From assembly GCA_016281495.1 (NCBI GenBank), contig JAEEIU010000027.1:62001-126000 (forward strand): a DNA stretch of 64,000 nucleotides, written 5' to 3'. The DNA comes from Treponema sp. GTDB taxonomy: Bacteria > Spirochaetota > Spirochaetia > Treponematales > Treponemataceae. Shown here piece after piece: positions 28,732-35,790 of the stretch; positions within the stretch are counted from its first letter, which is position 1; each line of letters begins with the position of its first letter. A program made the position numbers and the translations under genes. The notes under the pieces were generated by a model that made no database searches, was not told the DNA's origin, and saw only the letters and a program-made list of their open reading frames with translations.

Positions 28732-29184
28732 ATGGGTATTCGCGGTGAACTTTATACGACTCAAATAAACTTTGACAACCGTTCATATTTTTTCAATGTC
28801 AAGGAAAACCGTAACCATGACGTGTTTTTGCAGATTGTCGAAAGCAAGGTCAAGGACGGACAGGATGACAGGCGTGCCATCGTAGTTTTTGCTGACGACA
28901 TGCAGGAATTTTTGTCAGGCATGGATCAGGCCCTTACATTCATAGAAAAGGACAGGAAGGAAAAGGCCAAGGCAAAGGCAGAAAAGAAAGCCGCCAAGGA
29001 AGCCAAATTCGGCCAGGGTGAATCTGATTCTGATGCCTCAAAAAAGAAGGTTTACCGCAGGAAGGGAGAAAGCCGTCTTGTTGCCGAACGCAAGGCCAAA
29101 AAGGAAGATACCGGCGTAAAGAAAACAGGACGCATCATCGTAACTTCAAAGCGTGCCACAACAAAAGAAGACAACGAATACTAA
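28732..29184 (+). CDS. PUR-domain nucleic-acid-binding protein
   Basis: 150 residues. The first about 70 (IRGELYTTQINFDNRSYFF..., DVFLQIVESK, RRAIVVFADDMQEFLSGMDQAL) match the bacterial single PUR repeat known in spirochaetes, for example the Borrelia PUR protein BpuR, which binds RNA and DNA. The remaining half is a Lys-rich, disordered tail (KEKAKAKAEKKAAKEAK), which would add nonspecific nucleic-acid affinity and is longer than in a minimal PUR protein. Ribosome site AAGGAAGG. A role as a post-transcriptional regulator is inferred from the family. It converges on rnhB with 14 bp between the stops. Confidence 0.83.
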   Translation: MGIRGELYTTQINFDNRSYFFNVKENRNHDVFLQIVESKVKDGQDDRRAIVVFADDMQEFLSGMDQALTFIEKDRKEKAKAKAEKKAAKEAKFGQGESDSDASKKKVYRRKGESRLVAERKAKKEDTGVKKTGRIIVTSKRATTKEDNEY

Positions 29185-29198
29185 ACTTTTATCCAGAA

Positions 29199-29801
29199 CT
29201 ATTCTTTTTCGTAATTAAAACTCATCCGCTGAATGGGAGACGGTCCGATTTTACGGCAGATTTCCCTATGAGCCTTTGTGGGATATCCCTTGTGCTTTGC
29301 ATATCCGTATTCGGGGTAAAGCGCGTCATATTTGACCATTATCCTGTCACGCTCAACCTTGGCAAGTATGCTGGCCGCCATAACCTCTGGAACCGTGGCA
29401 TCAGCCTTGACCCTTGACTCAACTTCACAAGAAAGATCCGGCACTTTGTTTCCGTCCACAATTGCATGAATCTTTCCAATTGAATTAAAATCAATTCCGT
29501 TTGACTTGCACCACACCTCAAGCTTTTTAATCATCTTTTCGTATGCTTTTTTCATGGCAAGGAGGCTTGCATTCAGAATGTTGATTCTGTCAATTTCATC
29601 GTGTTCAACGCGGGCAACACCCCAGAGGCATTTTTCCTTTATGATTTTTTCTGCCATGTTTCTTTTTCTCTCGGAAAGCTTTTTGCTGTCACCCAAAATT
29701 TCAACAGGGAAACCTGGGCTCAAGACGACACAAGCGGCAACAACAGGGCCTGCCAGAGGACCCCTTCCCGCTTCATCAAGACCTGCCTGCAATACAGCCA
29801 T
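29199..29801 (-). CDS. rnhB: Ribonuclease HII
   Basis: Removes RNA from RNA-DNA hybrids and single ribonucleotides misinserted in DNA. 200 residues with the catalytic AGLDEAGRGPLAGPVVAA (Asp, Glu), HAIVDGNKVPD (Asp), and VMAASILAKVERD (Asp region), ending with KHKGYPTKAH. Normal length. The start overlaps the stop of the upstream beta-helix gene by one base (TGATG), so translation is coupled. Confidence 0.95.
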   Translation of the reverse strand: MAVLQAGLDEAGRGPLAGPVVAACVVLSPGFPVEILGDSKKLSERKRNMAEKIIKEKCLWGVARVEHDEIDRINILNASLLAMKKAYEKMIKKLEVWCKSNGIDFNSIGKIHAIVDGNKVPDLSCEVESRVKADATVPEVMAASILAKVERDRIMVKYDALYPEYGYAKHKGYPTKAHREICRKIGPSPIQRMSFNYEKE

Positions 29802-30832
29802 CAGTCGAATACCTCATTGTTTTCTTCATCCTGAATCACAGTGCATATTTCATCGACATAGAGAGAACGTCCGTCTCCTTTTGTAAGGTGTCCCGTAAAA
29901 CTGTTTCCGTAAAGTGAAAGTCTGGTTCCGCTGGCCTCCACCATTCGTCCAAGTTCACCCCATAACGTGCATGAACTGTTAGCCAAAGAACATGAGCCGC
30001 CATTGACACTCAGGGCTGTGGCATGAACTCCGGTACATGTAAATCTGGATTCATTTATTGATACGGCGGAATCCCTCGAATTGACCAGGACCGCATATTC
30101 CTTGCTCTGCATTGTCAGACCACCGCCATTAAAGCTTAAACGGCTGTCCTTAAGATCCACCATAGAGGCAGTTTCCAAAAAGTTTCCGATAAGTTCGCAG
30201 TCATAAAAACTCAGGCTTGATCCTTTTGCATCAATAATCCGGTCAGAGGAAGCGTTACTTTCCTTTTTCAGGACACACAATTCAAGCTGAACATCCGCAT
30301 CCTGAACATAAAGGACAGAATTACAGTCGAAAATGATAGTATGATCTCCCCCGTCAATAGTGCAATCCTGATACAGGGCATATGAATTCTTAAGTGTAAT
30401 GTCAGACAGAAGGTGAAGCTTGCACTGATATCCGTCGTTTACAGCCATTAATGCCTGCTCCAGGGTGGAATATGGATTCTGGTATGAACCGGCAGGATAT
30501 TGACTGTCTCTTGAGGAAGTTGAGCCTACATAGATGTCTGCCCCATGCCTCATGATTTTTTTGTAGGAAACGGGATTTCCTTCTTCGTAGGCCATGGACT
30601 GCCATCGGACTATGTGGTCCTGCCTCATGTCAAGCTTTCTGGGATTTTTATCCGCCGACCAGTATTCATCGTCAATCTGATAAATCAAAAAATCACCGGT
30701 AAAGGTAAAGGTTCCATCGCGGTCTATAGAGTAAGGTATGATTTCCTGAACATCCAGCGCCACGGCAATCTGACAGCAAAAAACAAAGGTCAGAAAAACG
30801 GAAATCCGCAGCACTGTTCTCTTAAAAGCCAT
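29801..30832 (-). CDS. Exported parallel beta-helix-like protein
   Basis: 343 residues with a signal peptide (hydrophobic segment ending CCQIAVA). The phrase NPYSTLEQALMAV followed by short repeats with alternating hydrophobic residues (TIDGGDHTIIFD, SSLSFYDCELIG, SRLSFNGGGLTMQ, SAVSINESRFTCTG, GSCSLANSSCTLWG, TRLSLYGNSFTGH) is typical of right-handed beta-helix surface proteins with a DUF1565-like entry. No catalytic motif recognised. Ribosome site GGAGG; coupled to rnhB downstream. Confidence 0.75.
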   Translation of the reverse strand: MAFKRTVLRISVFLTFVFCCQIAVALDVQEIIPYSIDRDGTFTFTGDFLIYQIDDEYWSADKNPRKLDMRQDHIVRWQSMAYEEGNPVSYKKIMRHGADIYVGSTSSRDSQYPAGSYQNPYSTLEQALMAVNDGYQCKLHLLSDITLKNSYALYQDCTIDGGDHTIIFDCNSVLYVQDADVQLELCVLKKESNASSDRIIDAKGSSLSFYDCELIGNFLETASMVDLKDSRLSFNGGGLTMQSKEYAVLVNSRDSAVSINESRFTCTGVHATALSVNGGSCSLANSSCTLWGELGRMVEASGTRLSLYGNSFTGHLTKGDGRSLYVDEICTVIQDEENNEVFD

Positions 30833-30904: not shown

Positions 30905-31513
30905 TTATTTATCGGCAAAAATCGGCTCAAGCACCTTTCTTAATTCAGGATATGGTGTATAAAAATTCTTTTCAAGCTCTTCTTTTGTAAGCCCCACAAG
31001 CTCATGACTGTTGTAGTTTATCCATGGATTATTCTCCGGCTGATCTATCTCCAGCTTGCGGCACCAGTAGTCAGGAACTATTGGAAGTGGATCCTTGTAT
31101 TTGTATACCTTAAAATCATGAACGACAACCTTAATGTTCTCGCGTGGAACACCTTTTTCAAGCAAAACGCCTACCAGATAATTCAGGGTTTTTCCGGAAT
31201 CGTAGATGTCGTCCACAAGCATTACATTATCACCCTGTCGCAGGTAGTCCGGGGAATATGTCCATCCGTCCACACGCACCGCATCATGTTTCTTTACGTC
31301 GGTATAGGAACGTGCCACGACAGCCGCATACAGAACTGGTTTATGCCTCTTGAGTGCCACCTTGTAGTATTCGCTCAGGATATTGGCCATGTAGGCACCG
31401 CCTCGCAACGACGCATAAATCACATCAGGAACAAAACCGTCCTCCTGATAGATTTTGTGTGCAAGAAGAAGCGCATTATTTCTGACTGTATCGTAGGGCA
31501 AAAATTCCTTCAT
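30905..31513 (-). CDS. Phosphoribosyltransferase family protein
   Basis: 202 residues of the type I PRTase fold. The PRPP-binding motif VMLVDDIYDSGKTL lies near residue 98-111 and the pyrophosphate-loop-like YASLRGGAYMAN near 34. The domain resembles hypoxanthine/xanthine-type purine salvage enzymes, but the C-terminal hood is unfamiliar, so the base is left open. It follows clpC by 18 bp with AAGGAG as ribosome site and probably shares its transcript. Confidence 0.82.
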   Translation of the reverse strand: MKEFLPYDTVRNNALLLAHKIYQEDGFVPDVIYASLRGGAYMANILSEYYKVALKRHKPVLYAAVVARSYTDVKKHDAVRVDGWTYSPDYLRQGDNVMLVDDIYDSGKTLNYLVGVLLEKGVPRENIKVVVHDFKVYKYKDPLPIVPDYWCRKLEIDQPENNPWINYNSHELVGLTKEELEKNFYTPYPELRKVLEPIFADK

Positions 31514-31531: not shown

Positions 31532-34114
31532 CTATTTTTCCGTGTGTTCCAAATATTCAAGTGAATGAGCCCCTTCAATTTTCAAGGGAAGGGCATCATC
31601 AGAAATGCTTTTGATTTTTTTGACACCGTCTGCACTTGCAAAAGACACCTTGAGCTTTTCGTTCTTGCATTCAATTACTGCACGTGAACTGAACTTATTC
31701 TTGCCTGAAAGAATGAGTGTTGCCAGAGGGTCTTCAACTTCCTGCTGAATGAGGCGTCTCATCGGACGGGCACCCATAAGCGGGTCATAACCATGCTCCA
31801 CCATGTACTCACGGGCCTTGGGTTTTACCGAGATTGTAATTCCCTGCTCGGAAAGACGTTCCTCAAGTTCTGCAATCTGAATGTCGAGTATGCTGCTGAT
31901 TTCCTTTTTGCCAAGGGCATTGAACACTATTACGTCATCTATGCGGTTCAAGAGCTCAGGTGACATTATGTGCTTTAGCTCCTCCATGGCATTCTGCTCC
32001 ATTTCATCGTGAGGAAGTATGCCTTCCTTGCTGGATGCAAACCCAAGCTTGGACTCTGCATTTATGTTCCTTACACCGGCGTTACTTGTCATGATTACAA
32101 GCGTATTCTTAAAGCTTACGGTGTGGTTTTGTGTATCCGACAACTCACCTTCCTCAAAAATCTGAAGGAGAAGATTATAAATCTGCGGGTCGGCCTTTTC
32201 TATCTCGTCGAACAAAACGACTGAATATGGCCTTTGCCTTACTTTCTCGGTTAGCCTTCCACCCTCATCATGACCTATATATCCAGGAGGCGCACCAATC
32301 AATGATGATGAGGTATATTTGTCGCTGAACTCGCTCATGTCAAAGCGGATAAGGGCATCCTCGCTTCCAAACAGGAATTTTGCAAGGGCCTTTGCAAGCT
32401 GGGTTTTTCCGACACCAGTGGGCCCCAAAAACAAGAATGAACCAATAGGACGTTTTAATGAAGACACACCTGAGCGGCTTCTCCTTACGGCTGAACTGAT
32501 TACAGAAATTGCCTGATCCTGACCGATGACATCCTTCTTGAGCTTATCCTCCATCTGAAGGAGCTTTTGGCTTTCGTCGGCATCAAGTTTTTCTATCGGA
32601 ATTCCTGTCATTGCCGAGATAACCGAGCATATATCCTGAACCGTAACACGAGTCCTTACCCTTGCATCCTGAGCCCTTAATGCAAGATTGTATTCGTCAA
32701 GCTGTTTCCTCAAGTGGGTAACCTTGTCGCGCACGTATGCGGCCTGCTCGTAATCCTGTTCCTGAACAAGATTCCTCTTTTCCTCTATCAGGTCGTCGAT
32801 TGTCTTTTCCAGCTGCTCAAGCTCAACAGGCCTCTGTTCATTTTGAATTTTCTTTGCGGCACCGGCTTCATCCAGAACGTCAATTGCCTTGTCCGGAAGG
32901 CATCTTTCCTGAATGTACCTGCGGCTGTATTTTACAGCTGCCTTTATGACATCGTCATCGTAACGCACATGGTGGAAATCCTCGAACTTACCCTTAAGGC
33001 CCTCAAGCATTTCCTCTGTCTCTGCATCACTCGGCTCATTTATCACAATCATCTGGAATCTTCGAGTCAGGGCAGAATCCCTTTCAAAACGGTTCCTGTA
33101 TTCCTTTAGTGTCGTGGCACCGATTACCTGAATCTCTCCGCGGCTCAAAGCAGGCTTTATCATGTTGCTCGCTTCCATTGATCCCTCAGGTCCACCGGCA
33201 CCGATTATCGTATGTATTTCGTCTATAAAAAGAATGATGTCAGGGTTTTCCTTTACTTCCTTCATCACCCTCTTCATCCTTTCCTCAAAGTCACCCCTGT
33301 ATTTTGTTCCTGCAATCATGGCGGCCAGGTCAAGCGAAAGAATGCGTTTTTTCAGGAGCCCGCGCGGAACATTTCCCTTTGATATCCTTTGGGCAAGGCC
33401 TTCCACTATGGCAGTTTTTCCAACTCCAGGTTCTCCGACAAGGACCGGATTATTCTTGCTTCTGCGGCTGAGTGTCTGGACAATACGTGCAATCTCTTTT
33501 TCACGTCCCACTACAGGATCCGTATCTGACTCGCGTGCCAGTTCTGTAAGGTCCCTGCTGAACTGCTGAAGGATGCTGTCCGGGTTTTTCTTGCGCTGGG
33601 AGCTTCCGTCCGACATTGTGGGAACCGGCTCTGAATACATGGAATTTGCTCCCTCCATTTTTGCGGATGAAGGAACTTTTCTCTGTACTTCCATGGCACA
33701 CTGTCTTGCCTGGTCAAGGGTTATTCCTGCCCGTTCAAAAAAAGTCTTTACTATTGATTTATCTTCCCGGATTGCGGCAAGAAGGATATGCTCCGTTCCG
33801 ATGTAGTCTGATCGTGTTATCCGTGCCTCAACACCAGCGACCTCCATCAAGGCCGAAAGTCTTGTTGAGCGCGGCAAATCATAAAGTGCGGTATTGGAAA
33901 TCTTGGAAGGCATGCTCTGTTCGATTGTGGTCTGAAGCATGAGCACGTTAATCTTCAATGCCTTTAGCGTGATGTATCCCAGACCGTCAGCAGATTTAAG
34001 AAGGGCCAGAACCATGTGCTCCACATCAAGCTGACTGCTCCCCAGATTATATGCTTCTTCCGGTGCAAGTACCGATATAATTCTCTGTACGCGAGGTGAA
34101 GGACCTCTTACCAT
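31532..34114 (-). CDS. clpC: ATP-dependent Clp protease ATPase subunit ClpC
   Basis: Hsp100 unfoldase that feeds substrates to ClpP. 860 residues: two Clp N-terminal repeats (1-150), AAA+ module 1 with GEPGVGKTAIVEGLA (about 225) and DEIHTIIGAGG, a middle domain with a UVR-like segment (EEKRNLVQEQDYEQAAYVRDKV, about 450), and AAA+ module 2 with GPTGVGKTQLAKALAK (about 565) and a D2-small domain. The M-domain and length fit ClpC rather than ClpA or ClpB. Last core gene of mcsA-mcsB-clpC; McsA and McsB act as its adaptor and kinase in Bacillota. Confidence 0.93.
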   Translation of the reverse strand: MVRGPSPRVQRIISVLAPEEAYNLGSSQLDVEHMVLALLKSADGLGYITLKALKINVLMLQTTIEQSMPSKISNTALYDLPRSTRLSALMEVAGVEARITRSDYIGTEHILLAAIREDKSIVKTFFERAGITLDQARQCAMEVQRKVPSSAKMEGANSMYSEPVPTMSDGSSQRKKNPDSILQQFSRDLTELARESDTDPVVGREKEIARIVQTLSRRSKNNPVLVGEPGVGKTAIVEGLAQRISKGNVPRGLLKKRILSLDLAAMIAGTKYRGDFEERMKRVMKEVKENPDIILFIDEIHTIIGAGGPEGSMEASNMIKPALSRGEIQVIGATTLKEYRNRFERDSALTRRFQMIVINEPSDAETEEMLEGLKGKFEDFHHVRYDDDVIKAAVKYSRRYIQERCLPDKAIDVLDEAGAAKKIQNEQRPVELEQLEKTIDDLIEEKRNLVQEQDYEQAAYVRDKVTHLRKQLDEYNLALRAQDARVRTRVTVQDICSVISAMTGIPIEKLDADESQKLLQMEDKLKKDVIGQDQAISVISSAVRRSRSGVSSLKRPIGSFLFLGPTGVGKTQLAKALAKFLFGSEDALIRFDMSEFSDKYTSSSLIGAPPGYIGHDEGGRLTEKVRQRPYSVVLFDEIEKADPQIYNLLLQIFEEGELSDTQNHTVSFKNTLVIMTSNAGVRNINAESKLGFASSKEGILPHDEMEQNAMEELKHIMSPELLNRIDDVIVFNALGKKEISSILDIQIAELEERLSEQGITISVKPKAREYMVEHGYDPLMGARPMRRLIQQEVEDPLATLILSGKNKFSSRAVIECKNEKLKVSFASADGVKKIKSISDDALPLKIEGAHSLEYLEHTEK

Positions 34115-34132
34115 TGTTCGACTCCTGGTGCC

Positions 34133-35254
34133 TCAAAGGGCAAGCTTTATATCCTGAAAAGCCTCCTGCAAAATCAATGCCCTGAGCCTTTCATTTTTTT
34201 TCTGAGGTACATCCTTTACGTCCTTCTCAAAATGGAAAATACCGTTTTTAAGGACATACTCAAGGTGACCTTCCTGTATTCTATACAAAAGAGCGTGAAG
34301 CTCCGTGTCATCTATTCCTGTCAAAAATCCCATGTCCTTGCCCCATTTTACGCCGCTGATGATGGAGATTGCTTCCCTTAGGGAAACGAACATGCTGGAT
34401 CTTGCAAGGGCCACCGCCCTGTACATATAGTTTTTTACATTTGACGGTGTGTTTTTCTTATATTCATCTCGGCTTGTTCTCTCCATATCCTTAATCTTTG
34501 CCGCCATGGAAACAACCGCACTCATTTGGTCAAGTTCTGTGCCGGACAGGCAGTTTACGGTATCAAGCGTATAATAGGAGCCCAAAGACGAGCCCTTCCC
34601 GCCGGAACCGTCCACATTGTTGTATCCGCCGTTGCCGTATGTTGCCGTAAATGAAAAGCCTTCCGACATGACCATTGATGCCAGTGACCTTATGCCTCCC
34701 ATCGCAGACACAGACGGAAGATGCATGCGGAGAGAAATCTTCATGCCGCTGCCTGCATCCCATGTATTTGCCGTAAGATAACCGAAATCATAGCTTGCCG
34801 CAAACTGTATTTTTGACTGAAGCCCCGAATCAACCGCCGTAACCATGCGTACAGTCTGGTCCAAGTCCAGTCCCGTCGCAAATGCCTTTATCTGGACATG
34901 ATCACCAGAGTTCACCGTACAGGAGAGTTTTCCGTCATTCCTAAGGATAAGCCCCTCTTTTTTGGAACCGTGGACATCAAGGGCTCCACGCTCATGCAGT
35001 ATCCGCCAGCCAAGAGTATCCAGCTTGTCCATGGTTATTGCCTGAAAGCTTTCTCCATCCGACATCTGGTTGAATGCATCAAAAACAATAGAGATTATCC
35101 GCTCATCATCACCGGGACGCAAATGCTCGGGAAAAGGAAAATCAGCAAGGTTACGCGCCAGCCTTACACGTGTTGCAACAATGACATCATTATCCTGGCC
35201 GTCGTATGTGTACCATGCCTCTGTTCCCTGGCTTTCGGAAGAGCTATCCTTCAT
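34133..35254 (-). CDS. mcsB: McsB-like (ATP:guanido phosphotransferase) protein lacking catalytic loops
   Basis: 373 residues. The N-terminal kinase motif RVRLARN (29-35), the general layout and its place between mcsA and clpC identify it as an McsB homologue; McsB in Bacillus phosphorylates arginines and marks proteins for ClpCP. Key segments are changed: the NEEDH motif with the catalytic Glu is NSGDH (115-119), the guanido-kinase signature C-P-[ST]-N-x-G-T is ANTWDAGSG (162-170), and the GEGSE motif is absent (GNGGYNNVDGSGG, 208-219). HLP (178-180) remains. It may be an inactive adaptor or a diverged kinase. Its start overlaps the mcsA stop. Confidence 0.82.
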   Translation of the reverse strand: MKDSSSESQGTEAWYTYDGQDNDVIVATRVRLARNLADFPFPEHLRPGDDERIISIVFDAFNQMSDGESFQAITMDKLDTLGWRILHERGALDVHGSKKEGLILRNDGKLSCTVNSGDHVQIKAFATGLDLDQTVRMVTAVDSGLQSKIQFAASYDFGYLTANTWDAGSGMKISLRMHLPSVSAMGGIRSLASMVMSEGFSFTATYGNGGYNNVDGSGGKGSSLGSYYTLDTVNCLSGTELDQMSAVVSMAAKIKDMERTSRDEYKKNTPSNVKNYMYRAVALARSSMFVSLREAISIISGVKWGKDMGFLTGIDDTELHALLYRIQEGHLEYVLKNGIFHFEKDVKDVPQKKNERLRALILQEAFQDIKLAL

Positions 35255-35790
35255 CAGCAGTCCTCCTCTGCGGTGTTCTCCCTGCTTCCATCTGCAACAG
35301 CCTCGCTTTCAAGGGCCCTTAGGTAATCACGGTACATTGCGGCCTTTTCGTAATCCTCGCTTGCAACAGCCGCATCAAGCTTGTTCTGCAAAATCATGCG
35401 GTCATTGAGTACGGAATGCACGCTGGAAAGACGCTGGGGCATTGAGCCTGAATATGTTCCCGATATGCCCTTATTCTCCAGGCATTTTCTGATATCAGCC
35501 TTGAAAATTGAATAACATTCGGGACAACCGGCGGTCATGGTTTTCTTTATCTGAGACAGGGATGTTCCGCAGACAGGACACATCTTGGAGTCTTCGGCAC
35601 GGAGTTTTTGGGCAACAGCAGTAAGTTCCGAAAAAAGATCGCCAATAGAAGCCTCTATGCTCCTTGGATCGTCACTTATTCCACGCTCAAGGGCACACTT
35701 CATGCACATGTTTATCTTGCGCTTTTGTCCGTTATTTACTTGTTCTAGAAAAATAACAGCCTTTTCTTCATGGCAAAAATCGCAGACCAT
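35254..35790 (-). CDS. mcsA: McsA-like zinc-finger/UVR adaptor
   Basis: 178 residues with cysteine pairs MVCDFCHEE, CMKCALE, CPVCGT and CPECYS (two zinc sites as in McsA) and a C-terminal UVR motif (NKLDAAVASEDYEKAAMYRDYLRAL). In Bacillus McsA activates McsB and helps ClpC engage clients. TGATG overlap with mcsB couples translation. No ctsR repressor gene precedes it; the upstream gene is a Lol permease. Ribosome site GAGGG. Confidence 0.88.
   Translation of the reverse strand: MVCDFCHEEKAVIFLEQVNNGQKRKINMCMKCALERGISDDPRSIEASIGDLFSELTAVAQKLRAEDSKMCPVCGTSLSQIKKTMTAGCPECYSIFKADIRKCLENKGISGTYSGSMPQRLSSVHSVLNDRMILQNKLDAAVASEDYEKAAMYRDYLRALESEAVADGSRENTAEEDC

Follow-up and report, generated by a model that had tools for sequence, protein, structure and literature searches.

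A mcsA-mcsB-clpC cluster of Treponema encodes a McsB homologue without the arginine-kinase catalytic set, a probable phosphorylation-independent partner of ClpC

The window analysed here, the whole stretch of 64,000 nucleotides that corresponds to bases 62001-126000 of its source contig in a 3.2-Mb Treponema genome, carries on its minus strand, as judged from open reading frames and domain search, a ftsX-like permease gene followed by mcsA, a mcsB homologue, clpC and a phosphoribosyltransferase-fold gene:

35254-35790, minus strand: mcsA, 178 aa, whose product carries a UVR motif and two zinc fingers made up of four CxxC pairs; the putative partner of McsB.
34133-35254, minus strand: mcsB homologue, 373 aa, a predicted pseudo-arginine-kinase with the McsB fold and without the catalytic set.
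31532-34114, minus strand: clpC, 860 aa, whose product is an AAA+ unfoldase that has Clp N-repeats and, in its middle region, a UVR motif.
30905-31513, minus strand: a gene of the phosphoribosyltransferase fold that frequently comes right after clpC in related Treponema; listed as context, outside the proposed mechanism.

The initial annotation had placed a mcsA-mcsB-clpC cluster at 31532-35790, and all three genes are found there, adjacent on one strand and in the order typical of Bacillota. The mcsA stop and the mcsB start overlap in TGATG, and clpC follows mcsB at a distance of 18 bp. The McsA zinc fingers, also described earlier, are complete, with all eight cysteines present, and the assignment of McsA is supported by matches to NF053706 (2.7e-25, below its cut-off) and to B. 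subtilis McsA (8wtb, 2.1e-19). No CIRCE heat-shock element was found in the window, and a sigma-70 scan 5' of mcsA gave zero coding-strand matches and a total equal to that of shuffles. Elsewhere in the window lie a PD-(D/E)XK nuclease family transposase (PF12784, 27748-28605), a DUF3276/PurA-like protein that binds nucleic acids and has a long basic tail (28732-29184) and, upstream of RNase HII, a 343-aa protein that matches no Pfam family and whose start resembles a signal peptide (29801-30832); a reading frame similar to the PF12784 transposase also occurs near a second clpP of the same genome (L121).

The McsB homologue matches PF00217 (6.7e-23) and, by phmmer, G. stearothermophilus McsB (5.8e-32), and scores far below the NCBIfam equivalog cut-offs (NF053707, 160.2 bits for a cut-off of 500; NF002194, 177.9 for a cut-off of 385). 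Structure prediction and superposition on McsB, a check proposed in the initial annotation, indicate that the fold is retained: an AlphaFold2 model built on 43 sequences (mean pLDDT 88, pTM 0.87) finds its best match in B. subtilis McsB 6tv6 (Z 39.2, rmsd 2.3 Å over 337 residues, 23% identity), followed by other McsBs and then by animal arginine and creatine kinases. With TM values of 0.83-0.88, the model has the fold of an ATP:guanido phosphotransferase domain and a McsB C-terminal domain; the structure search takes no account of side-chain geometry, so what it confirms is the fold alone, with no bearing on the active site. Chance or misalignment of the motifs described below was ruled out, as they align inside a 373-aa match with the McsB fold. 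Sequencing error or a pseudogene was likewise excluded by 94-97% identical copies in other genomes and by low dN/dS, the protein being 97% and 94% identical to those of two metagenome bins, Treponema sp. RGIG10242 (yak rumen) and UBA1233, which marks the source as a rumen-type Treponema. A PF00217 search of the genome found McsB and no second guanidino kinase, so that a takeover by another such enzyme was rejected on this search.

The earlier reading of the active site (RVRLARN kept, NSGDH and ANTWDAGSG as altered motifs, no GEGSE) holds in full. Below, residue labels such as E120, C167 or R337 follow B. subtilis numbering, and motif positions are residues of the window McsB:

35150-35170, minus strand (residues 29-35): RVRLARN, with R29, R31 and R34 retained.
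34898-34912, minus strand (residues 115-119): NSGDH for NEEDH, with E120S and E121G; D122 and H123 kept.
34745-34771, minus strand (residues 162-170): ANTWDAGSG for the CPTNxGT loop, with C167N and a new Asp (window D166) at the position of B. subtilis N170.
34571-34642, minus strand (residues 205-228): Gly-rich lid TYGNGGYNNVDGSGGKGSSLGSYY for the GEGSE lid, with E212N (GNGG in the window).

The lid is about 11 residues longer than that of B. subtilis, with low pLDDT at 218-220, and R207T lies at window residue 203, just before it. The substitutions comprise E120S, E121G, R125Q, C167N, R176K, R207T, E212N and R337N, of which the replacements of R125, R176 and R207 by Q, K and T come in addition to those noted initially, and R29, R31, R34, D122, H123 and R341 are kept. 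The catalytic set of NEEDH, CPTN Cys and GEGSE Glu is absent, including E121, E212 and C167, which we take to be the counterparts of Glu225, Glu314 and Cys271 of arginine kinase. These three residues all contact the guanidinium in that enzyme (PMC11075012). In B. subtilis McsB, exchange of R29, R31, R34, R125, R176, R207 or R337 for Lys abolished in each case activity or labelling in vitro, and C167S serves there as the kinase-dead allele (PMC7235348). Only R29, R31 and R34 of these seven essential arginines remain in the window McsB, which lacks R125, R176, R207 and R337; insertions in the C-terminal region make R337 the position aligned with least certainty, and this residue is likewise not conserved in NEEDH-bearing spirochaetes. 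Judged by these residues, the Treponema McsB is very probably devoid of arginine-kinase activity.

Conservation of the loops across spirochaetes, a further check proposed at the outset, was followed in an alignment of 133 Treponemataceae McsBs (Treponemataceae standing in all counts for genome family code f1, treated as such) together with outgroups, and the loss turned out to be family-wide, kinase-intact sites occurring mostly outside the class. A PF00217 protein is present in 132/145 Treponemataceae genomes and in 192/296 genomes across the phylum. Among the 132 Treponemataceae McsBs other than that of the window, 118 keep none of E121, C167 and E212, 14 keep one and none keeps more. The degenerate site described initially is real and is not peculiar to this locus. 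E121 is kept in 12/133 family members, C167 in about 2% and R207 in 13/133; D122 persists in 131/133, H123 in 133/133, R29 in 110/133, R31 in 108/133 and R125 in 95/133, and position 176 is Lys in 110/133. Searched as a DNA pattern, NEEDHxR occurs in 31/296 spirochaete genomes; the 48 Treponemataceae listed all lack it. In the McsB tree, Treponemataceae group as a single clade (SH-aLRT 100), whereas intact sites belong mostly to families outside the class, the number of independent losses being unsure because several deep branches are long. Degenerate sites are also found in four other families of the class (f2, f5, f11 and f14), which suggests that loss of the active site predates Treponemataceae, and a further family, f9, is mixed (NEDDH in G281, a NEEDHxR match in G375). 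A degenerate McsB therefore characterises every Treponemataceae member examined with the gene, and probably most of the class.

The lid measures 11-21 residues in Treponemataceae as opposed to 10 in all kinase-intact spirochaetes, and about 27 relatives have the same lid length as the window protein, 21 residues. Brachyspira-like genomes of family f24 (L107-L109) have a separately degenerate McsB with NSNDH, NSNEH or NSDDH, no Cys, no GEG and Glu at R125. In families f29 and f46 (L110, L116 and L118), McsB reads xEDDH, with Asp at the place of the catalytic Glu, and has Ser at position 167, while R125 and R176 are kept, possibly an intermediate state.

Purifying selection on mcsB is strong: in a comparison of the window with its nearest relative only, dN/dS is 0.029 for mcsB, 0.036 for clpC and 0.044 for mcsA. 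At E120, E121 and C167, the mean gain in entropy within Treponemataceae is 2.84 bits, whereas columns with the same conservation in kinase-intact spirochaetes gain 0.89 on average (p = 0.001), and the losses are therefore non-random; E120 and E121 reach about 3.4-3.5 bits in the family, which is near-random. At the same time, Q243 is present in 133/133 Treponemataceae McsBs and is Ile in kinase-intact spirochaetes, one of many lineage-specific conserved positions, R325 being another. Loss of catalytic residues under purifying selection is the mark of a pseudokinase, and the pattern in mcsB is, on this reading of the alignments, that of a putative pseudoenzyme with a retained job and not of decay.

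Association with mcsA is very consistent. Both mcsA and mcsB are present in 80/80 named loci, mcsA-mcsB-clpC lie on one strand in 74/74 loci with clpC in reach, and each of the eight McsA cysteines is kept in at least 124/126 Treponemataceae. Thirteen Treponemataceae genomes, among them G020 of 1.1 Mb, have no PF00217 protein, and in these the McsB profile and the McsA query both came back empty; an empty result is weak where no positive control accompanies it, but this McsA query did find McsA across the phylum. ClpC-like proteins are present in all 13, twelve of them with E <1e-217, whereas the match in G085 is weaker and possibly a paralogue. In three Treponema loci (L239, L240 and L242), the clpC frame follows a ftsX-like gene at 60-90 bp, with neither mcsA nor mcsB between them, so that the place expected for mcsA-mcsB is empty. 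On gene content, mcsA and mcsB are thus seen to come and go as a unit, and since clpC is kept where both are gone, ClpC does not need this McsB; the apparent obligate partner, whose fate is tied to that of McsB, is McsA and not ClpC. The Brachyspira-like f24 genomes (L107-L109) carry mcsA-mcsB without an adjoining clpC. McsA R96 and R169, considered as signs of lost kinase stimulation, were uninformative, R96 being mostly Lys in NEEDH-bearing spirochaetes too.

CtsR is chiefly found in Bacillota. The gene upstream of mcsA is the ftsX-like permease and not ctsR, and CtsR was found neither in the cluster nor in the genome with the PF05848 profile, for which one positive control matched; the B. 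subtilis control genome gave no PF00217 or CtsR match although B. subtilis has both genes; the control set may lack the region, and control counts should be read with care. The absence of ctsR pointed out initially is upheld as an observation but weighs little, because of the largely Bacillota distribution of CtsR and because mcsA-mcsB-clpC has the same order in spirochaetes with an intact NEEDH and Cys. The sole low-molecular-weight phosphatase (PF01451) reads CHGNICRS, with Ile at the P-loop position (5) where YwlE-type enzymes have Thr; Ile at that place goes with pTyr and Thr with pArg specificity (PMC8001253). YwlE-type CTGNTCR phosphatases do occur in G156 and G178, whose McsB site is complete, but the pattern is present in only 4/31 NEEDH-bearing spirochaete genomes, too few for co-occurrence with intact McsB to be a general rule; the absence of YwlE alone therefore proves little and is supportive only. 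The ClpC pArg-pocket glutamates E32 and E106 (B. subtilis numbering) are both present in the window ClpC and kept in 123/124 Treponemataceae. As these pockets also stabilise the resting state of ClpC (PMC12583610), their retention is not decisive for pArg reading, and with E32 and E106 kept nearly everywhere the N-domain pocket was uninformative as a test of it.

Taken together, these data argue for an ancient, lineage-wide pseudo-arginine-kinase that acts together with McsA and is a partner of ClpC without recourse to phosphorylation, the reading that we regard as reasonably probable. In other bacteria McsB marks damaged proteins by phosphorylating arginine; here catalytic and ATP-binding residues are lost and mcsB is nonetheless strictly preserved beside mcsA and clpC, whence probably a non-enzymatic helper of protein breakdown. 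The mcsB product keeps its guanidino-kinase and C-terminal domains but would no longer phosphorylate arginine; it would form a complex with the zinc-finger protein McsA, a step that we consider highly likely; and this complex may bind or activate ClpC, clients being handed over by direct protein contact and not by a phospho-arginine tag. That McsB acts on ClpC as adaptor or activator is probable from the operon and the joint losses. Of the kinase-dead adaptor proposed in the initial annotation, kinase loss is very probable and the adaptor role fits best, because of strong purifying selection, the kept operon and loss together with mcsA. In B. subtilis, C167S keeps part of the McsB effect on MgsR turnover, read there as kinase-independent adaptor function (PMC7235348), but activation of ClpC by McsB was reported to need kinase activity (PMC5506225), so that a kinase-free adaptor must work differently. 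Retention of E32 and E106 in ClpC, as if pArg were still read, counts against the adaptor reading, and persistence of clpC without mcsA and mcsB means that ClpC need not be the target of McsB.

This last point also favours a reading in which the pseudokinase is not mainly a ClpC adaptor: McsA-McsB would be a ligand or redox sensor, its basic cluster (R29, R31 and R34, joined in most species by R125 and K176) binding a nucleotide or another phosphorylated ligand, and ClpC would only be co-expressed. The f24 genomes with mcsA-mcsB away from clpC agree with it, as does the family-wide retention of D122, H123, R29, R31, R125 and Lys176. The different ligand offered as an alternative in the initial annotation is likewise compatible with the retained R29, R31, R34, D122 and H123 of the window McsB and the new Asp (D166) in its old CPTN loop. 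R125Q and R207T in the window weaken the case for nucleotide binding, however, and throughout the family mcsA, mcsB and clpC retain their order; we consider this sensor role unlikely. More doubtful still is a rewired kinase for arginine or another substrate, in which a carboxylate such as window D166 (B. subtilis N170) takes over from the glutamates, accompanied by Lys at 176 and by the lengthened lid. An acidic residue stands at the N170 position in 80% of Treponemataceae but in no kinase-intact spirochaete, 12 family members keep E121, and Lys at 176 is also found in a few NEEDH-bearing spirochaetes. Against this, E121, E212 and C167, equivalents of residues that contact the guanidinium in arginine kinase (PMC11075012), are all gone in the window, R125, R176 and R207 are changed too, the sole candidate phosphatase lacks the hallmark of pArg enzymes, and the NEEDH positions E120 and E121 are nearly random in the family, unlike a replaced catalytic site, which is why rewiring is improbable. 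A decaying, pseudogene-like relic without remaining function would account for the Treponemataceae without mcsA and mcsB, G020 among them, but is very hard to reconcile with a full-length frame, dN/dS of 0.03, PF00217 in 132/145 family genomes and lineage-specific conserved positions such as Q243, and we give it hardly any weight.

If McsB is a pseudokinase partner of ClpC, the change may extend further: the whole family, and probably most of the class, could have turned McsB into a dedicated McsA-dependent, phosphorylation-independent ClpC partner, separating scaffold from chemistry and dropping the arginine-phosphorylation code, a generalisation to which we would give an even chance. In B. 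subtilis, adaptor and kinase functions of McsB are entangled, and whether it acts on ClpC without arginine phosphorylation is unsettled; here evolution has removed the catalytic site and kept the McsA-McsB-ClpC operon, which makes the question of a kinase-free McsB directly testable. Spirochaete genes annotated as 'protein arginine kinase' or 'McsB' should accordingly not be read as proof of arginine phosphorylation, and a pseudoenzyme of guanidino-kinase fold would join the few bacterial pseudokinases under discussion. No open-access paper treating McsB in Treponema or Brachyspira was found, most subscription papers lying outside the search.

With the known McsBs of B. subtilis, G. stearothermophilus and S. 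aureus (PDB 6tv6, 6fh1 and 8gqd), the Treponema protein has in common the two-domain fold along the whole chain, the mcsA and clpC neighbours and R29, R31, R34, D122, H123 and R341, at 22-26% identity; it differs in lacking E120, E121, C167, E212, R125, R176, R207 and R337, in its longer Gly-rich lid and in the company of its gene, with no ctsR and no YwlE-type phosphatase seen. The ctsR-mcsA-mcsB-clpC operon of Bacillota shows the same three-gene adjacency as the window, with ctsR at its head. Kinase-intact spirochaetes (G156 in f27, G178 in f36, G151 in f22 and G192 in f41) have the same mcsA-mcsB-clpC order as the window, whereas their McsBs keep NEEDH and C167, and in G156 and G178 also the GEGS lid. 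The B. subtilis C167S allele resembles the proposed Treponema McsB in having lost the kinase and kept part of the effect on substrate turnover (PMC7235348), although it is a single engineered change, whereas in Treponemataceae most of the active site has been lost naturally and across the family. Finally, ClpC adaptors such as MecA, which belongs to a different protein family and is compared here by proposed role, would share with Treponema McsB the activation of ClpC and the delivery of clients without covalent tagging.
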